Below are positions 785 to 42,271 of a DNA stretch of 42,615 bases, one piece after another (the first letter of the stretch is position 1; each line of letters begins with the position of its first letter). The position numbers and the translations under genes are program-made. The notes under the pieces were generated by a model. The model did no database searches, was not told where the DNA came from, and saw only the letters and a program-made list of their open reading frames with translations. This DNA is from Bacteroidota bacterium (GTDB lineage: Bacteria > Bacteroidota > Bacteroidia > Bacteroidales > VadinHA17), in the NCBI GenBank assembly GCA_029564935.1, contig JAKQPD010000171.1:1-42615 (forward strand). The letters run 5' to 3'.

Positions 785-788
785 TAAG

Positions 789-966
789 GCACAGGGCGCA
801 GGTTGAGGAGTGAAACGACGTAATCCCGCAAAGCGGGAGCACAGAGCAAGTTGCGAGGTGCGGGGTGCAAGGTGCGAGGGTGCGGGGTGCGAGGTAATCT
901 CTAACCGAAACCTGGAACCTTAAACCTGGAACCCGGAACCCGGAACGCTGAACGCCGAATACCTTA
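789..966. repeat. heptanucleotide repeat island with a central hairpin
   Basis: This fills the gap between the serpin and the lipoprotein. It starts with GCACAGG and GCGCAGG (789-802). A hairpin element follows at 805-838 (arms TCCCGC 824-829 and GCGGGA 833-838). Next come about seven units of type GCGAGGT/GCGGGGT/GCAAGGT at 846-895, one with an extra G. Last are about eight units at 904-959 (CCTGGAA, CCTTAAA, CCCGGAA, CGCTGAA, CGCCGAA). Read on the other strand, the last array is RGGTTCC, close to the RGGTGCG of the first, so the two arrays are related and inverted. ORFs crossing it are translated repeat. Confidence 0.85.
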
Positions 967-993
967 AACAAAAAAGTACATAAAAACGAAAAA

Positions 994-8992: not shown

Positions 8993-9372
8993 TTTGTTAA
9001 GTTTTATGAAGATCTGCTCTTCGTTATTATTAATGCAAACTATATGCCAGATTTGTTACTACACTGATATTTAGGATCTTATCGAGATGGATTACGTACT
9101 TTTCTGTCATTGAATCCGGGAGTAAAAGATAGAGAGATAGGGAGATGAGGAGAGGGGGAGCAAGAAAGCTCAGGGCTCAGGGCTCAGGGCACAGGGCTCA
9201 GAGCACAGGGCTCAGGGCTCAGGGCTGGTGATCGGTAACCGGTATGATAAGCGGTATGTCGATAAGTATAAATGACTTACTGATTACCGAACACCGAATA
9301 CCGATTACCGAACACCAGACACCGGAATTAATAAAATTTTACAATCTTTATACTCAATTAAACAACGGTTTT
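8993..9372. repeat. gap holding octamer and heptamer arrays upstream of the first acyltransferase
   Basis: 8993-9120 shows nothing recognisable. At about 9134-9165 an octamer-period purine stretch occurs (GAGATAGG, GAGATGAG, GAGAGGGG). At 9168-9223 there are eight contiguous heptamers: GCTCAGG five times, GCACAGG twice, GCTCAGA once. At 9227-9266 are GGTGATC, GGTAACC, GGTATGA, GGTATGT. At 9282-9330 are GATTACC, GAACACC, GAATACC, GATTACC, GAACACC, AGACACC. The last array read on the other strand is CGGTATT/CGGTGTT/CGGTAAT, the same word type as CGGTAAC/CGGTATG at 9233-9259, so the two are inverted copies. Confidence 0.85.
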
Positions 9373-22239: not shown

Positions 22240-23952
22240 TTATTGAACGATTGATTTGAATGCATCGTCGGCAAAGAATTTTGCAAATTCCATATCGGTT
22301 TTTGCAGCTGCTTTGAATGCGGGATCGATTCCGACAGCTTCGCGCAGACCGGCAAGCATATAGTTTTTGTCATCCAGACGTGCACCAACAACAGCTTTAA
22401 GGTAAGGAGCTCTTCCTTTGCATGTTTCTTTCATACTGTCGAGAGTTGCTTTAGCCCTGTTGACATCGCCTTTAAGAAGCTGTGCCAGAGCCAGGTTGAA
22501 GCAAGGTTCTGTTCCGAAAAGGTTAACTGCCTTATCATATTCTCCCTTTGTAATTGCAATAACTCCCAGTCCCCATTTTGATTCGGGTGTCTGAGCTGTC
22601 ATCGAATTGAACAGTTCTTCAGCTTTAACGAGTTCACCTTTAACAAGTGCGGCAAAACCAAGGTTGTTCTTTACAACATCGTTATTGTTGATCGCTTTTG
22701 CAGCTTCGAAAGCTTTGACAGCATCATCTGTTCTTCCGAGAGCCATGAGTGTATAACCAACATTATTATGAGCCCTGATACATTTCGGATAAGCTTCTGC
22801 AGCTGCCTGGTAGAATTTGAGTTGTTCGTTGGCATCCTTGGTAAGAGTGGATGCATAAAGCATTTCCTCCAGACTGAGTACTTTGGGATCAGATTTGGCC
22901 TGAGCAAGTATCTGTTCGTCGCTGCGACCGATCTTATCAACATTGATGACCATTTTTGACCTTCTCAGCTTAGGGAGAATCTCATCTTTCAGTGATTCAT
23001 AAGCTGATGCCATGTTTTTGATCTCTTTTTCACGTACAGCAGGGTCGGCATACATAGAAAGAACCCTCAGTATCAGATCTTTGTCCTGGATTGATGATTT
23101 TTCTACTTCTTCCTTAAAGCCTTCCCAGTCTTCCGGAGTGGTTAAATTGTCGAAAAAGTCGCCTGTTTTTGCAGCTTCAATTTTTGAGAATTCTTTCTTG
23201 ATGAATTTATCGGCTGCAGTACCTCTGTTTCCTGAAAGTTTTTCATTCAGGGTAAGAGGACCATCGGGAGATGCATAGGAGCTTACAACTGCGGTTTTGA
23301 ACTGGCGGGAAGGATCGGTATTAACAGCCTGGATATATTCTTTCAAAGCTGTAATGTCAGCAGCTTTAAGTTCTGCGCTGCGGATATCTGCCCTGTTAAT
23401 TACATAGTTTATATCAGCCATCTGGCTTTCAGGAATGATCCTCTGGAAATTATCTTTCATCAAGACAGCTCTTCCATGTTTCTGAACCAGCGTTGAAGTT
23501 GCAATAACACCATCTGCCAGTTTTACCGGTTCAAAGTCAAGACTTTTTGCCCCTCTCACTGCATTTACTCTCAGCATCAGCTCTGATACTTTCATTGCGT
23601 CTTTATAAGGAATGACTGCATTATAGGTGAAATTACCACCTGTATAAGTAATAACCTGGTTATTGGCCATAACTTTCTCACCCTGTAATACCTGAACTTT
23701 ATCAAAAGCTGTTTCTCCACCTGCATAGGTCAGAACAGGAGTAGCTGTAACTGTAGTCTTCTTGTCGAAATACTTTTCAGGGAATTCACCTTTGATAGTA
23801 ACATTTACCAGGCCTCCGTGTGCTTCAAGAATCTTTGGAGTTACCTCATACTTAATTGTGTCCTGGTTTTTCTTCATCTTATTCAGACCACTACAGCCTG
23901 TCATTAAGGCTGCGGCCACGATGAGAATAAAATAGCTGCTGATTTTTTTCAT
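22240..23952 (-). CDS. TPR-containing lipoprotein with OmpA-like segment
   Basis: 570 residues from ATG 23952, chosen because MKKISSYFILIVAAALMTGC is a complete lipoprotein signal (Cys20); an upstream in-frame ATG at 24003 adds 17 residues without it. The mature part begins with a beta-rich domain (about 30-165). A segment VSSYASPDGPLTLNEKLSGNRG resembling the peptidoglycan-binding OmpA core follows (about 225-265). The C-terminal 180 residues are TPR repeats (AHNNVGYTLMALGRTDDAVKAF in outline). A periplasmic scaffold linking the outer membrane to the wall is a reasonable inference. A -7-like TAAATTTG lies at 24020-24027. A U-tailed terminator follows at 22188-22214. Confidence 0.8.
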   Translation of the reverse strand: MKKISSYFILIVAAALMTGCSGLNKMKKNQDTIKYEVTPKILEAHGGLVNVTIKGEFPEKYFDKKTTVTATPVLTYAGGETAFDKVQVLQGEKVMANNQVITYTGGNFTYNAVIPYKDAMKVSELMLRVNAVRGAKSLDFEPVKLADGVIATSTLVQKHGRAVLMKDNFQRIIPESQMADINYVINRADIRSAELKAADITALKEYIQAVNTDPSRQFKTAVVSSYASPDGPLTLNEKLSGNRGTAADKFIKKEFSKIEAAKTGDFFDNLTTPEDWEGFKEEVEKSSIQDKDLILRVLSMYADPAVREKEIKNMASAYESLKDEILPKLRRSKMVINVDKIGRSDEQILAQAKSDPKVLSLEEMLYASTLTKDANEQLKFYQAAAEAYPKCIRAHNNVGYTLMALGRTDDAVKAFEAAKAINNNDVVKNNLGFAALVKGELVKAEELFNSMTAQTPESKWGLGVIAITKGEYDKAVNLFGTEPCFNLALAQLLKGDVNRAKATLDSMKETCKGRAPYLKAVVGARLDDKNYMLAGLREAVGIDPAFKAAAKTDMEFAKFFADDAFKSIVQ

Positions 23953-24064
23953 GATAAAACTAGTTATTTGATTATTAATAGTCGTGTGTAAATAGTTCAA
24001 CAAGATACAAATTAAACTGCAAATTTAAAAAAAAGTTCAGGGAACATATAAAAAATTAAGAAAA

Positions 24065-29750: not shown

Positions 29751-31073
29751 ATGAAAGAAGAATTCCTTCATTACCTCTGGAAATATTCTCTTTATGACCC
29801 TGAATCACTTCTTGATAATGATAAAAATAAGATAAGGGTCATACATCCCGGAGAATATAATAAAGACTCCGGCCCCGATTTTTTTAATGCCAGGATACAG
29901 ATCGGAGATACAAGCTGGGCAGGAAATGTTGAAATACATACTTCCTCATCCCATTTCGACAATCACGGTCATAATCACGACCCGGCTTTTGATAATGTTA
30001 TTTTACATGTCGTCGCAAATAACGACCGCCGGGTTTTTAATTCAAAAGGGGAAGAAGTCCTGACAACAACAATATCATTCAATCCTGACCTTTATGACAA
30101 GTATCTTGAACTGGTGAATAATCCCTGTCTGATTGCCTGCCAGGAGCAGATAAGGGATATTGATAAGCTTTTTATCCGTCACTGGCTCGGATCAGTCCTG
30201 ATCGACAGACTGCAGGATAAAATGGATCAGATAATGAGGATCTATACAGAAACCGGACATGACTGGGAAGAAACTTTTTACAGATTACTTGTGCGTTATT
30301 TCGGGTTCAGGGTAAATACCGGACCGTTTGAAATGCTGGCTGTATCTCTCCCGTTCAGGATCATCAGGAAACATTCCGACAACCGCTTTCAGGTCGAGGC
30401 TCTCCTTTTCGGGACTGCCGGCCTCCTTGATGAAGGACTATTCAGGAATGCAATAATTGATGATTATTATATTTCACTCATCCGCGAATATAAGATCCTA
30501 TCATCAAAATATTCATTGCAGCCCCTGCATGGATTTATCTGGAAATTTGCCAGGCTCAGACCAGCCAATTTCCCCACTGTAAGGATCTCACAGCTTGCGG
30601 CTATGCTTTGCGGCTCCGGAGGATTATTCTCCAGGGCTCTCGAATGCAATAATATCAGGCAACTGAAGGGAGTCTTTGAGGTGGAAGCTTCGGAATACTG
30701 GAATGATCATTTCATTTTCGGGAAAAAAAGCAGGTTTTCTCCGAAACATACAGGATCTCAGGCATCGGATCTGCTTCTGATAAATGCTGTTACCCCGGCA
30801 ATATTTGTTTATGGTAAAACACGCGATCTGAAAGAGGTCAGTGAAAGAGCACTTTCATTTCTGGAGGATATTCCCCCTGAAGCTAATTCAATAACAGATG
30901 AATGGAAACTTATCGGAATTGAAGCGGAATCAGCATTTTATTCCCAGGCGCTTATCCGGCTGAGAAATGAATATTGCAAAAAGAGAAGATGTCTCGATTG
31001 CCGGATCGGAGCCAGATTAATAAGTATGGGAAGGTGCTTCAGAAAACACGAGGAGCTGATGCTGGAACCCTGA
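29751..31073 (+). CDS. DUF2851 family protein
   Basis: 440 residues, a family characteristic of Bacteroidota with no known activity. Visible family blocks are FLHYLWKYSLYD, GEYNKDSGPDFFNARIQIG, WAGNVEIHTSSSHF, and DNVILHVVANNDRRV. The N-terminal part with its Asp/Glu/Lys spacing (GPDFFNA, GNVEIH) looks like a nuclease-type PD-(D/E)xK fold; this is inference. The C-terminus has a Cys cluster, CKKRRCLDCRIG, which could bind metal. The stop codon (31071-31073) overlaps the first unit of a heptamer array. The gene converges with the purM-like gene. Confidence 0.85.
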   Translation: MKEEFLHYLWKYSLYDPESLLDNDKNKIRVIHPGEYNKDSGPDFFNARIQIGDTSWAGNVEIHTSSSHFDNHGHNHDPAFDNVILHVVANNDRRVFNSKGEEVLTTTISFNPDLYDKYLELVNNPCLIACQEQIRDIDKLFIRHWLGSVLIDRLQDKMDQIMRIYTETGHDWEETFYRLLVRYFGFRVNTGPFEMLAVSLPFRIIRKHSDNRFQVEALLFGTAGLLDEGLFRNAIIDDYYISLIREYKILSSKYSLQPLHGFIWKFARLRPANFPTVRISQLAAMLCGSGGLFSRALECNNIRQLKGVFEVEASEYWNDHFIFGKKSRFSPKHTGSQASDLLLINAVTPAIFVYGKTRDLKEVSERALSFLEDIPPEANSITDEWKLIGIEAESAFYSQALIRLRNEYCKKRRCLDCRIGARLISMGRCFRKHEELMLEP

Positions 31074-31106
31074 GGGGTGAGGTATGAAGGGTGAGGGGTG
31101 AGGCGT
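31072..31106. repeat. heptamer array between convergent genes
   Basis: Five contiguous units: GAGGGGT, GAGGTAT, GAAGGGT, GAGGGGT, GAGGCGT. They fill nearly the whole 36-base gap between the DUF2851 and purM-like stops. Confidence 0.85.
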
Positions 31107-40141: not shown

Positions 40142-40169
40142 CATTATCGTATCAAATATAAGCTTAAAT

Positions 40170-40262
40170 GAAGTAAGAATGAAGAACAATCGAATGAAGA
40201 ATTAAGAAGTAAAAAAAAGGGTTCCGCGAATGCAGAACCCTTCATTTTTAAAGTCAGCGACG
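40170..40262. repeat. left copy: heptamers, rRNA-type terminator and 5S 3' relic
   Basis: Heptamer-like units (GAAGTAA, GAATGAA, GAACAAT, CGAATGA, AGAATTA, AGAAGTA) at 40170-40211 are followed by a hairpin. Its arms AGGGTTC (40218-40224) and GAACCCT (40235-40241) precede eight U on the minus strand. Then comes AAAGTCAGCGAC, matching the 3' end of 5S rRNA at 41969-41980 (AAAGTCGGCGAC), with divergence after that. It has the order and sequence of the true rRNA-operon end at 41854-41980. It now serves as the terminator of the ATPase gene. Confidence 0.8.
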
Positions 40263-40289: not shown

Positions 40290-41426
40290 TTAGCTTAATG
40301 GAAAAGACTCTGTCCATCGCCTGAAAAGTATATCGTAGATACTGTAGTACACTGCACCTTCCACGGTAAATGCAGAGTACAACAATTCGTTGTTTATTAA
40401 TGACTTCAATGAGCGAAGCACAGTGGAAGGGCTTCCAAGTTTATACCTGCTGATAAAATCCTTTGAGGTCGGAGCTGTAACAACTCCCTCGTGGGCAACC
40501 GCTTTCATCAGCTGCCATTGAGGATTTGTAAGCATACTCCTGTAATTGAAAAATATGTTCTCCTGTTCTTTCAGGAGCTTGTAGGCTTCTTCCTTCCACA
40601 CAGTGTCTGTAATCTTTTTTTGCCCCGTGGCGAATACCCTGTTGCAGATAAGCTGCACGTAGTATGTGTGTAAACATGACCACATCAGCATATCTTCGAT
40701 TATTTCTCCGGAAACAGATTTGCCATGTCTGTCGAACCACCCGGCTATAAAGTCGCGATACTCGCTCTTCTCTAATTTTTCGATACCCAGCACTGCCGTG
40801 CTCCGGTAAAATGGTCTCGATGGCAAACTAAACATCTCATTGATAATATGCTGCTGACTTCCTGAAAAAACAAAACGGACATGTGTCATGTGCTGGATCA
40901 CGGAACGCAGCCAGGCATCAATATTCTTTTCCGGATACCTTGTAATCTGTTGAAATTCGTCTATGGCAATAACAATATTGAAATCCTGATTCTCCAGGAA
41001 TTGCATTATTGAACTTATATGCATTTCAGCATCAGCCTGTCGAAGTTCAAAAGACGCCTGAGGCAGGTTAGTCAAGGGGTCGAAGCTAATTATGGGACGC
41101 ATTGATTTGACAAAGGTCCAGATTTTCCTTCCCAGGCTTTCTTTTTCCGGCACGGTATTCAGGATCGCTGTAGTCAACATGCTGAGAAATTCCTGTAGGT
41201 TTTCTGTTGGTAGGATATCTACATAAATCCCCTTCCATCCTTCAGGAAGGTTATAAAAAAGATGTTTGATCAGTCCTGTTTTGCCTATTCTCCTGACAGA
41301 TGTAAGAGTGACATTCTGTCCATTCTGAATGTGGTTCAATAAGCGGGTGGTTTCTTTTTTCCGGTCACAGAAGTAATCGGGGCTGTGATAGCCGGAGATC
41401 AGGAAAGGATTTTCCGGTTTTCTCAT
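40290..41426 (-). CDS. STAND-type P-loop ATPase with C-terminal winged helix (archaeal-ATPase family)
   Basis: 378 residues. The Walker A-like SVRRIGKT (43-50) has the family's RR before GKT. Walker B is IVIAIDE (151-157), and the sensor is FVFSGSQQHI. The C-terminal winged helix is at about 300-355 (TSKDFISRYKLGSPSTVLRS). This matches the ATPase_2/MNS-like families that are numerous in Bacteroidota and archaea and of uncertain role (sensing, regulation or mobile-element related). No nuclease or other effector domain is fused. It lies between two copies of the rRNA-operon end. A strong inverted repeat just upstream of its start (41445-41485) could be its own operator. Confidence 0.85.
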   Translation of the reverse strand: MRKPENPFLISGYHSPDYFCDRKKETTRLLNHIQNGQNVTLTSVRRIGKTGLIKHLFYNLPEGWKGIYVDILPTENLQEFLSMLTTAILNTVPEKESLGRKIWTFVKSMRPIISFDPLTNLPQASFELRQADAEMHISSIMQFLENQDFNIVIAIDEFQQITRYPEKNIDAWLRSVIQHMTHVRFVFSGSQQHIINEMFSLPSRPFYRSTAVLGIEKLEKSEYRDFIAGWFDRHGKSVSGEIIEDMLMWSCLHTYYVQLICNRVFATGQKKITDTVWKEEAYKLLKEQENIFFNYRSMLTNPQWQLMKAVAHEGVVTAPTSKDFISRYKLGSPSTVLRSLKSLINNELLYSAFTVEGAVYYSIYDILFRRWTESFPLS

Positions 41427-41485: not shown

Positions 41486-41931
41486 TAAATATTTAAAATA
41501 ATATCATCAAAAGGTTGCAGGTAAACGAGTATCAGGAAAGCATTATTCCTGATAAATTTCAGAACGGTTCGGAAGAATTAAGAAATTAAACACATACTTC
41601 ATTCAATAGTTTTAACTGATGTTATTTGAAGTAAGAACATTTGAACCAACCTTCGCTACCTCCTTCGCTACCTCCTTCGCTGACGCTACGGAGGTCAAAG
41701 AAAGCTACGGGGGTCAAAGATTGCTTCGGCTGGCAATGCATTCGAAGTCAGAATGCAGAAGTTTATAGTTCTTAATTCTTACTTCGCTTGTTCTTCATTC
41801 TTAATTCAATAGTCTTAACTGATGATTTTTGAAGTAAGAACATCAGAACATTCGAAGTAAGAATGAAGAAGTATTTTAACTTCTTACTTCGCAATTCGTT
41901 TGTTCTATTGTTCTTACTTCATTCAAATCAT
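41486..41931. repeat. gap between the ATPase gene and the rRNA operon, mostly repeats
   Basis: 41486-41590 shows nothing clear. A 40-base direct repeat (41601-41640 and 41804-41843) matches at 37 positions. Between these, the 12-mer TTCGCTACCTCC occurs twice (about 41656-41679), with inverted relatives (GCTACGGAGGTC, GCTACGGGGGTC). From 41765 to 41930, heptamer-like units alternate orientation: TTCTTAA, TTCTTAC, GAAGTAA, GAATGAA, then TTCTTAC, TTCGCAA, TTCATTC. No gene is seen. Confidence 0.75.
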
Positions 41932-41961
41932 AAAAAAAGGGTTCCGCGTTAGCAGAACCCT
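41932..41961 (-). terminator. terminator of the rRNA operon
   Basis: AGGGTTC (41938-41944) and GAACCCT (41955-41961) pair, with seven U on the minus strand. It lies about 12 bases past the 5S gene. Confidence 0.85.
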
Positions 41962-41972
41962 CTGTTTAAAAG

Positions 41973-42079
<107 letters not shown>

Positions 42080-42271
42080 AGATCGTTTGAAGTCCGGAGT
42101 CTGAAGTCCGGAGTCCGAAGAATTTTTCTTCCTGACTTCCTTTCCCGCTGTGCGGGATTGTGTGGCTTCGCTCCTTAACTTCCGTCTTCCGACTTCCGTC
42201 TTCCGACTTCCGACTTCCGTCTTCCGACTTCGGTCTAATATTATGACATTTGGCAAAAGCTAGTAAAATGT
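42080..42271. repeat. 5S-23S spacer made of inverted heptamer arrays around a hairpin
   Basis: 42089-42123 holds five units (GAAGTCC, GGAGTCT, GAAGTCC, GGAGTCC, GAAGAAT). The hairpin element is at 42143-42180 (arms TCCCGC 42143-42148, GCGGGA 42152-42157). 42179-42234 holds eight exact-length units (CTTCCGT, CTTCCGA, CTTCGGT). Read on the other strand, the second array is GAAGTCG/GAAGACG, so it is the inverted relative of the first. No tRNA is present. The stretch should be in the primary rRNA transcript and then be removed. Confidence 0.85.

Follow-up and report, generated by a model that had tools for sequence, protein, structure and literature searches.

Facing heptamer arrays in the intergenic islands of a Bacteroidota genome and their orientation to the adjoining gene edges

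The stretch shown above raises a simple question: why should a short intergenic spacer hold an array of G-rich seven-nucleotide words followed closely by an array of similar words read on the other strand? The window, that is, the whole stretch of 42,615 bp analysed here, is contig C348 of a genome (G000) of 4,175,997 bases in 441 contigs; the named relatives of one of its proteins belong to the Bacteroidales and other Bacteroidota, the best being 67% identical. The first island begins right after the stop codon at 782-784 with degenerate G-words GGCACAGGGCGCAGG (785-845, + strand), and this initial segment includes a 5-bp hairpin with AATCCCGCAAAGCGGGA at 822-838 (+ strand), both read from the letters. 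A G-word heptamer array of the GGTGCGA type follows at 846-895 (orientation +; reported by TRF from 846 or 852 to 895 as TGCGAGG) and is faced by a C-word array at 903-959 (orientation -), which reads GGTTCCR on the other strand and corresponds to a TRF array of the AACCTGA type at 903-952. A first-pass annotation had described 846-895 and 904-959 as inverted arrays, and the TRF calls at 852-895 and 903-952 agree with this description. In what follows, "+" designates a G-word array, "-" a C-word array, and "+-" a G-word array followed by a C-word array.

Four places of inverted pairing had been named in the window. All four exist, and three of them are facing arrays of short repeats, but the fourth, at 41820-41930, is a palindrome of long words. 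In the second place, a GCTCAGG array without a same-word partner (9168-9226, +, TRF score 97) precedes a short CGGTAAC/CGGTATG arm at 9233-9259 (+) that faces an ACCGAAC-type array at 9277-9326 (-). The latter, annotated at 9282-9323, was confirmed by TRF at 9286-9324, with an orientation score that was undecided (-0.1), but the first arm consists of two to three copies only and was seen by TRF as a 12-mer repeat (9236-9258). The pairing of GAAGTCC with GAAGTCG in the rRNA spacer was borne out. The GAAGTCC arm (42088-42120, +; TRF 42089-42120), which is the C-word side in the sense of the rRNA (- strand), faces an ACTTCCG arm (42178-42236, -; TRF 42178-42231, score 87-99) in the spacer between the 5S gene (41971-42079) and the 23S gene (from 42273), both on the - strand; orthologous spacers were compared, as described below. 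At 41820-41930, inverted arms do occur, in the form of an extended, imperfect palindrome made up of GAAGTAAGAA-type words (41830-41921, no strand assigned), the 43-nt arms of which (41830-41872 and 41879-41921) are 79% complementary, but TRF reports no 7-mer array there and the words are longer than heptamers. Not every island of the window is paired, as a single TGAGGGG array lies at 31071-31106 (+). RNA folding was compared with dinucleotide shuffles on the two strands, as the first-pass annotation had proposed. The first island does not stand out (z of -1.5 and 0.0 for 837-983, -1.5 and -0.7 for 790-990), but the other three do: -7.5 and -4.5 for 9160-9335 (-5.3 and -5.2 for its part 9228-9326), -9.1 and -9.3 for 41820-41930, and -4.0 and -4.1 for 42085-42240.

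Several other repeats were noticed around these islands. The hairpin AATCCCGCNNAGCGGGA of 822-838 is also present, with 0-1 mismatch, at 42143-42159 and in contig C26 of the same genome (197-213), and two of these three sites sit in the two 23S-5S spacers. REP and REPIN elements consist of a palindrome with a conserved head, present in many copies, and come with a cognate transposase. As a REP-like core of the islands this hairpin was rejected because it is too rare (three sites with 0-1 mismatch and six with two mismatches in the genome), and the combination of many palindrome copies and a cognate transposase was not found for it; three Y1_Tnp matches are present in the genome. Next to the 5S gene, the ORF at 40290-41426 may be an inserted element. 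It is flanked by a 30-nt terminator-like sequence found at 40212-40241 and 41932-41961 (90% alike) and surrounded by a 47-nt inverted repeat (40169-40215 and 41762-41808, 87%), and upstream of it lies a 54-nt direct repeat (41593-41646 and 41796-41849, 87% alike, 203 nt apart).

The search was extended to an own-genome sample composed of the window and 80 stretches, 972,518 of the 4,175,997 bases; 32 of the 80 stretches lie on contigs already matching the first island, so that the density of arrays in this sample is not unbiased. Seven was the commonest of the lags tried, with 79 arrays, compared with 0, 15, 30, 14, 5, 3 and 1 at lags 5, 6, 8, 9, 10, 11 and 13, respectively. Lag 14, a multiple of seven, gave 57 arrays, and lag 12 gave 30 arrays versus 72 at lag 7 in a smaller sample of 735,469 bases. 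The period-7 arrays form 57 islands, 32 of which contain at least two arrays, and many words coexist in the one genome (GGTTCCA, AGTTGGC, AGGGCTC, AAGTCCG, AGGCGTG and others). In a related genome, G017 (L227-L229), six lag-10 arrays were seen within 60,000 bases, outnumbering its lag-7 arrays.

The inverted pairing is genuine and is found again across the genome. Arrays were oriented by a 5-mer score, leave-one-out, trained on the first versus the last arrays of all other islands. Among the 57 islands, 27 were +-, one was +-+ and none was -+, while 14 were + only and 15 were - only; one of the 27 (L056 15703) is, by eye, probably a single word misread. Controls in which random islands were flipped (n = 300) yielded a mean of 5.9 +- and 5.8 -+ islands, with a maximum of 20 +-. 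The score, held fixed, was then applied to 70 distinct islands at 57 loci from other species of the genus, where 18 +-, no -+ and two -+- islands were counted. Seven of these loci had been retrieved by search hits spanning both arms and held six of the 18 +- islands; removal of these six by hand from the locus tables left 12 to 0. The addition of 20 stretches from four relatives brought the count to 19 +-, no -+ and two -+- among 83 distinct islands. GC skew alone gave 10 +-, two -+ and one longer pattern in the other species, and was rejected as the sole marker of orientation because it breaks down on balanced words. The claim that inversion is beyond chance holds for the orientations, as 29 of 39 orientable adjacent pairs were opposite (28 +- and one -+) and 10 were the same, three more being unclassifiable. 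It did not hold for plain similarity: a comparison of direct and inverted likeness was not significant (24 of 40 inverted, p 0.27) and was abandoned as a test of inversion, being weak in part because an array broken into two pieces scores as a direct pair. The order with the G-word first was kept in pairs of unrelated words (nine +-, one -+).

The arrays are also oriented with respect to the gene edges, here defined with a crude ORF caller (74% of the bases called coding). An array was considered to abut a stop codon when its outer end lay between 20 nt inside and 30 nt outside it. By this definition, 32 arrays of the own genome are G-sense and three are C-sense. Start-abutting arrays numbered ten C-sense and four G-sense. 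Islands with a single orientation and nearest to a stop were G-sense in 19 of 20 cases in the own genome, 17 of 19 with retrained gene calls, and 25 of 29 in the other species; those nearest to a start fitted the rule in four of nine, four of ten and seven of nine cases, respectively. The stop codon may even lie inside the first repeat unit, as in the TGAGGGG array at 31071, where it belongs to the ORF that ends at 31073, and at L029. The pooled rates of the one-sided islands predict +- in 91% of the co-directional and 98% of the convergent mixed islands, and the own-genome rates alone predict 85% and 99%. With 91% per island, the probability of 27 out of 27 is approximately 0.07; since the observed count is slightly above this prediction, something may add to the orientation rule.

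Comparison with related genomes revealed empty sites. In the sister species G013, which has one lag-7 array in 400,000 bases, the corresponding spacers are short at three places: 57 bp at window position 785-983, 60 bp at L044 6050-6200 and 50 bp at L043 3929-4167, the last being 62 bp in G011. This near absence speaks against the general structural RNA role offered by the first-pass annotation. The spacer of the first island is also short and array-free in G015 and G002, and in G020, with the same two neighbours, it contains GGGCTC-type words and a similar hairpin. In G004 and G014, other repeats lie upstream of the gene downstream of the first island, the left neighbour being cut off or different. 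For the 23S-5S spacer, 23 of the 29 loci with a 5S match were examined (six were excluded because the 5S lay at the edge of a contig or was matched only in part; the included G033 has 6 bases upstream). No arrays were found in this spacer in G001, G010, G011, G012, G013, G019, G020 and one of the two G024 copies, nor, more distantly, in G027 (two copies), G029, G031, G037, G038 and G039. GAAGTC-type arrays occupy both G000 operons, G002 and the second G024 copy, while GGCGGAA faces AATCCGC in G014 and AATGCGG faces AATCCGA in G017. The words thus turn over at this spacer while the facing layout persists. The spacer of G007 (L149, upstream of the 5S) is unlike the other occupied ones, in that its facing repeats have units of 9 and 8 nucleotides and enclose an ATGTATT-type repeat.

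We propose that the islands are made of runs born by slippage, each oriented to the adjoining gene end. This is the best explanation of the data, to which we assign a probability of about one half. In this model, short spacers would acquire one or two heptamer runs, probably through replication slippage, and partly after the split from the sister species, as the three empty sites show. The orientation of each run to its gene edge is seen in the data: the G-richer word points outwards from the adjoining gene, most clearly in sense directly after a stop codon, which is sometimes contained in the first unit. Runs on both sides of a spacer would then have to face each other, with the G-word first on either strand. 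Judging from the rates in one-sided islands, the inverted pairing would be mainly a consequence of the orientation rule; orientation to gene edges, which the first-pass annotation had not considered, accounts for most of the facing. Hairpin potential would arise where the two words happen to be related. The orientation might be maintained by selection acting on the bases that immediately follow the stop codon, or by a mutational bias at the point of ribosome exit from the transcript, the two causes that we rank first. The homogeneity of the arrays showed no gradient from which a direction of growth could be read: of 40 arrays, 19 had more mismatches in their 5' half and 16 in their 3' half. 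Besides the count slightly above prediction, the crude gene calls and the two -+ islands given by GC skew in the other species, further observations count against the proposal. The start-nearest one-sided islands of the own genome do not follow the rule, and the words of two arms are more alike within an island than after re-pairing (0.616 versus 0.517, with one in 500 re-pairings as high), a likeness that independent runs would not give. Later exchange between the arms, or selection on their pairing, may explain it.

The same likeness is what would be expected if a nascent first array folded back and was copied as an inverted second arm, later template switches keeping the two alike, and template switching is described as a source of RNA hairpins in the available part of a published study (PMC8794818). 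The turnover of words at the 23S-5S spacer, with arms that still face each other, would also fit. Yet arms that were mirrored copies should show their variant units in mirrored order, and this was found in none of 17 tests. Nine of the 28 +- pairs are made of unrelated words, L056 15703 probably being one misread word among them, 29 of the 57 islands have one orientation only, and folding back gives no reason for the G-first order or for the rule at stops. Fold-back, which the first-pass annotation had suggested, is therefore not supported as a general origin, and we regard it as unlikely. A birth linked to transcription is somewhat less doubtful, although still improbable. RNA:DNA hybrids would form where ribosomes exit at the stop codon, and the displaced strand would slip and expand, with G-rich words favoured in sense; the displaced strand could then fold and give rise to the partner. 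The G-sense excess at stops, both in one-sided islands (19 of 20) and in abutting arrays (32 to 3), agrees with this, as does a rule that is weak or absent at starts in the own genome. Such hybrids are, however, only presumed here, and in co-directional islands the second array runs antisense to both genes. The gene calls also placed five mixed islands between two starts, although undetected genes may account for some of these. A telomere-like extension of 3' ends at breaks would fit the island order, and was dropped as the leading model because the one-sided islands nearest to a start lack the rule (4 of 9).

The islands could instead be kept for the RNA that they encode, as 3' hairpins, terminators or exonuclease blocks. 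Indeed, in the comparison with dinucleotide shuffles, 16 of the 28 +- pairs had z < -2 and the mean z was -2.9, and the occupied rRNA spacers reach -3.5 and -4.1 in G000, -4.8 in G002 and -2.8 in G017. Against this, 12 of the 28 pairs, and the first island of the window, miss the threshold, and the values are weak for the occupied spacers of G024 (contig C50, -2.0), G014 (-1.8) and G007 (-1.0), when the array-free G024 copy itself attains -1.9. A quarter of foreign partner arms, on average, fold as well as the own arm, approximately half of the islands are one-sided, and the sister species lives without nearly all of them, which makes this explanation quite unlikely. Folding energies were similar when the arms were swapped so that the C arm came first, hence pairing alone cannot set the order. 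Lastly, selection for G-quadruplexes, or their formation, has been suggested for the GGGNATC repeats and might set both placement and orientation; the placement and the convergent pairs are those reported in the accessible text of Rehm et al. 2015 (PMC4692102). The composition of the arrays is hardly compatible with it: GGG is present in the consensus of 21 of 96 oriented arrays, a canonical quadruplex motif in seven, 26 have no GG at all, and in 20 of the 28 pairs GGG occurs in neither arm. As a general cause, quadruplexes are largely refuted for canonical motifs, most arrays having no G-tracts, and we consider this reading very improbable.

The orientation to gene edges thus remains our preferred reading, and its interest lies in its generality. 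A rule described for a single quadruplex-forming word applies here to many, most of them lacking G-runs, and even to arms that do not match; orientation can therefore be separated from quadruplex and hairpin formation, and its cause becomes testable. Strong fold scores at such islands may accordingly be by-products of facing repeats. It is conceivable, as a speculation that we hold with little confidence, that distant phyla (the Bacteroidota of this study and those of the published Xanthomonas and Nostoc cases) share a polar mutational process, independent of the words, which operates at gene ends and deposits heptamers whose G-richer strand points outwards from the gene. Under this hypothesis, any spacer affected on both sides would acquire a facing G-to-C island, and both the period of 7 and the polarity would stem from an enzyme, or from an RNA:DNA state at ribosome exit, and not from the words. 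In Nostocales plasmids (19 stretches, 950,000 bases), 35 lag-7 arrays were counted, with at most seven at lags 5, 6, 8-11 and 13 and 15 at lag 14. Two arrays were present in only four of 34 islands, too few for a test of the order; by GC skew two of the four were +-, and by letters three had the G-word first, L307 37590 being undefined or contrary. One of the stretches, L299 (Nostoc plasmid NZ_CP117772), carries at 23853-23972 a PLSDB-predicted 120-bp match to Erm(K) with 100% identity, which may be a prediction artefact.

Cyanobacteria such as Calothrix also have genomes dotted with degenerate 7-bp tandem repeats, the short tandemly repeated repetitive (STRR) heptamers, which belong to another phylum and have other words than those found here. 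Among the matches listed, confined to open-licence papers, none dealt with such islands in Bacteroidales. In the Nostoc trnL intron, the P6b stem is built of seven-nucleotide repeats of two interchangeable word classes with a similar fold; it is one intron site under structural constraint, and the portions available describe no genome-wide rule (Kaasalainen et al. 2015, PMC4476775). The TAACTGA repeats of Beggiatoaceae, Cyanobacteria and five Bacteroidetes are likewise spacer heptamers, with mixed islands in a few Bacteroidetes and with shorter, array-free spacers in close relatives, as here. According to the sections accessible, this system has one word, whereas many are found here, and its arrays in the main genome studied are nearly all direct and mostly upstream of starts (MacGregor 2015, PMC4679880). 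Neither TAACTGA nor a rotation of it occurs among the consensus words listed for our arrays, which are placed after stops.

The closest likeness is with the GGGNATC and GGGGA(C/T)T repeats of Xanthomonas and Nostoc PCC 7120, as far as the available passages of Rehm et al. 2015 (PMC4692102) describe them. These are intergenic degenerate heptamers that lie in sense less than 50 bp from stops, which they may overlap, or antisense upstream of starts. Convergent pairs of GGGAATC arrays number 70 in Xcc and 75 in Xac, and Nostoc PCC 7120 has the same placement with few pairs only. Intergenic tandem arrays with a 7-nt unit, convergent pairs on opposite strands, and sense-strand G-words no more than 50 bp from a stop are all found in our genome, and length and sequence vary between relatives in both systems. 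The quadruplex-capable G-tracts are not shared by most of our 96 oriented arrays: Rehm et al. stress quadruplexes, mentioning slippage as a suggested origin, and describe one G4-forming word per genome with a preference for four units, whereas most of the many words here have no GGG. Pairs of unrelated words occur here and not in those passages, and 83% of the Xcc repeats have a counterpart in Xac (PMC4692102), whereas our sister species is nearly array-free. The islands are therefore of an established type of bacterial repeat, with the architecture of the repeats of Rehm et al. To this type they add a Bacteroidota genome with many words, mostly without quadruplex G-runs, together with empty sites in a sister species and a turnover of words in the rRNA spacer.
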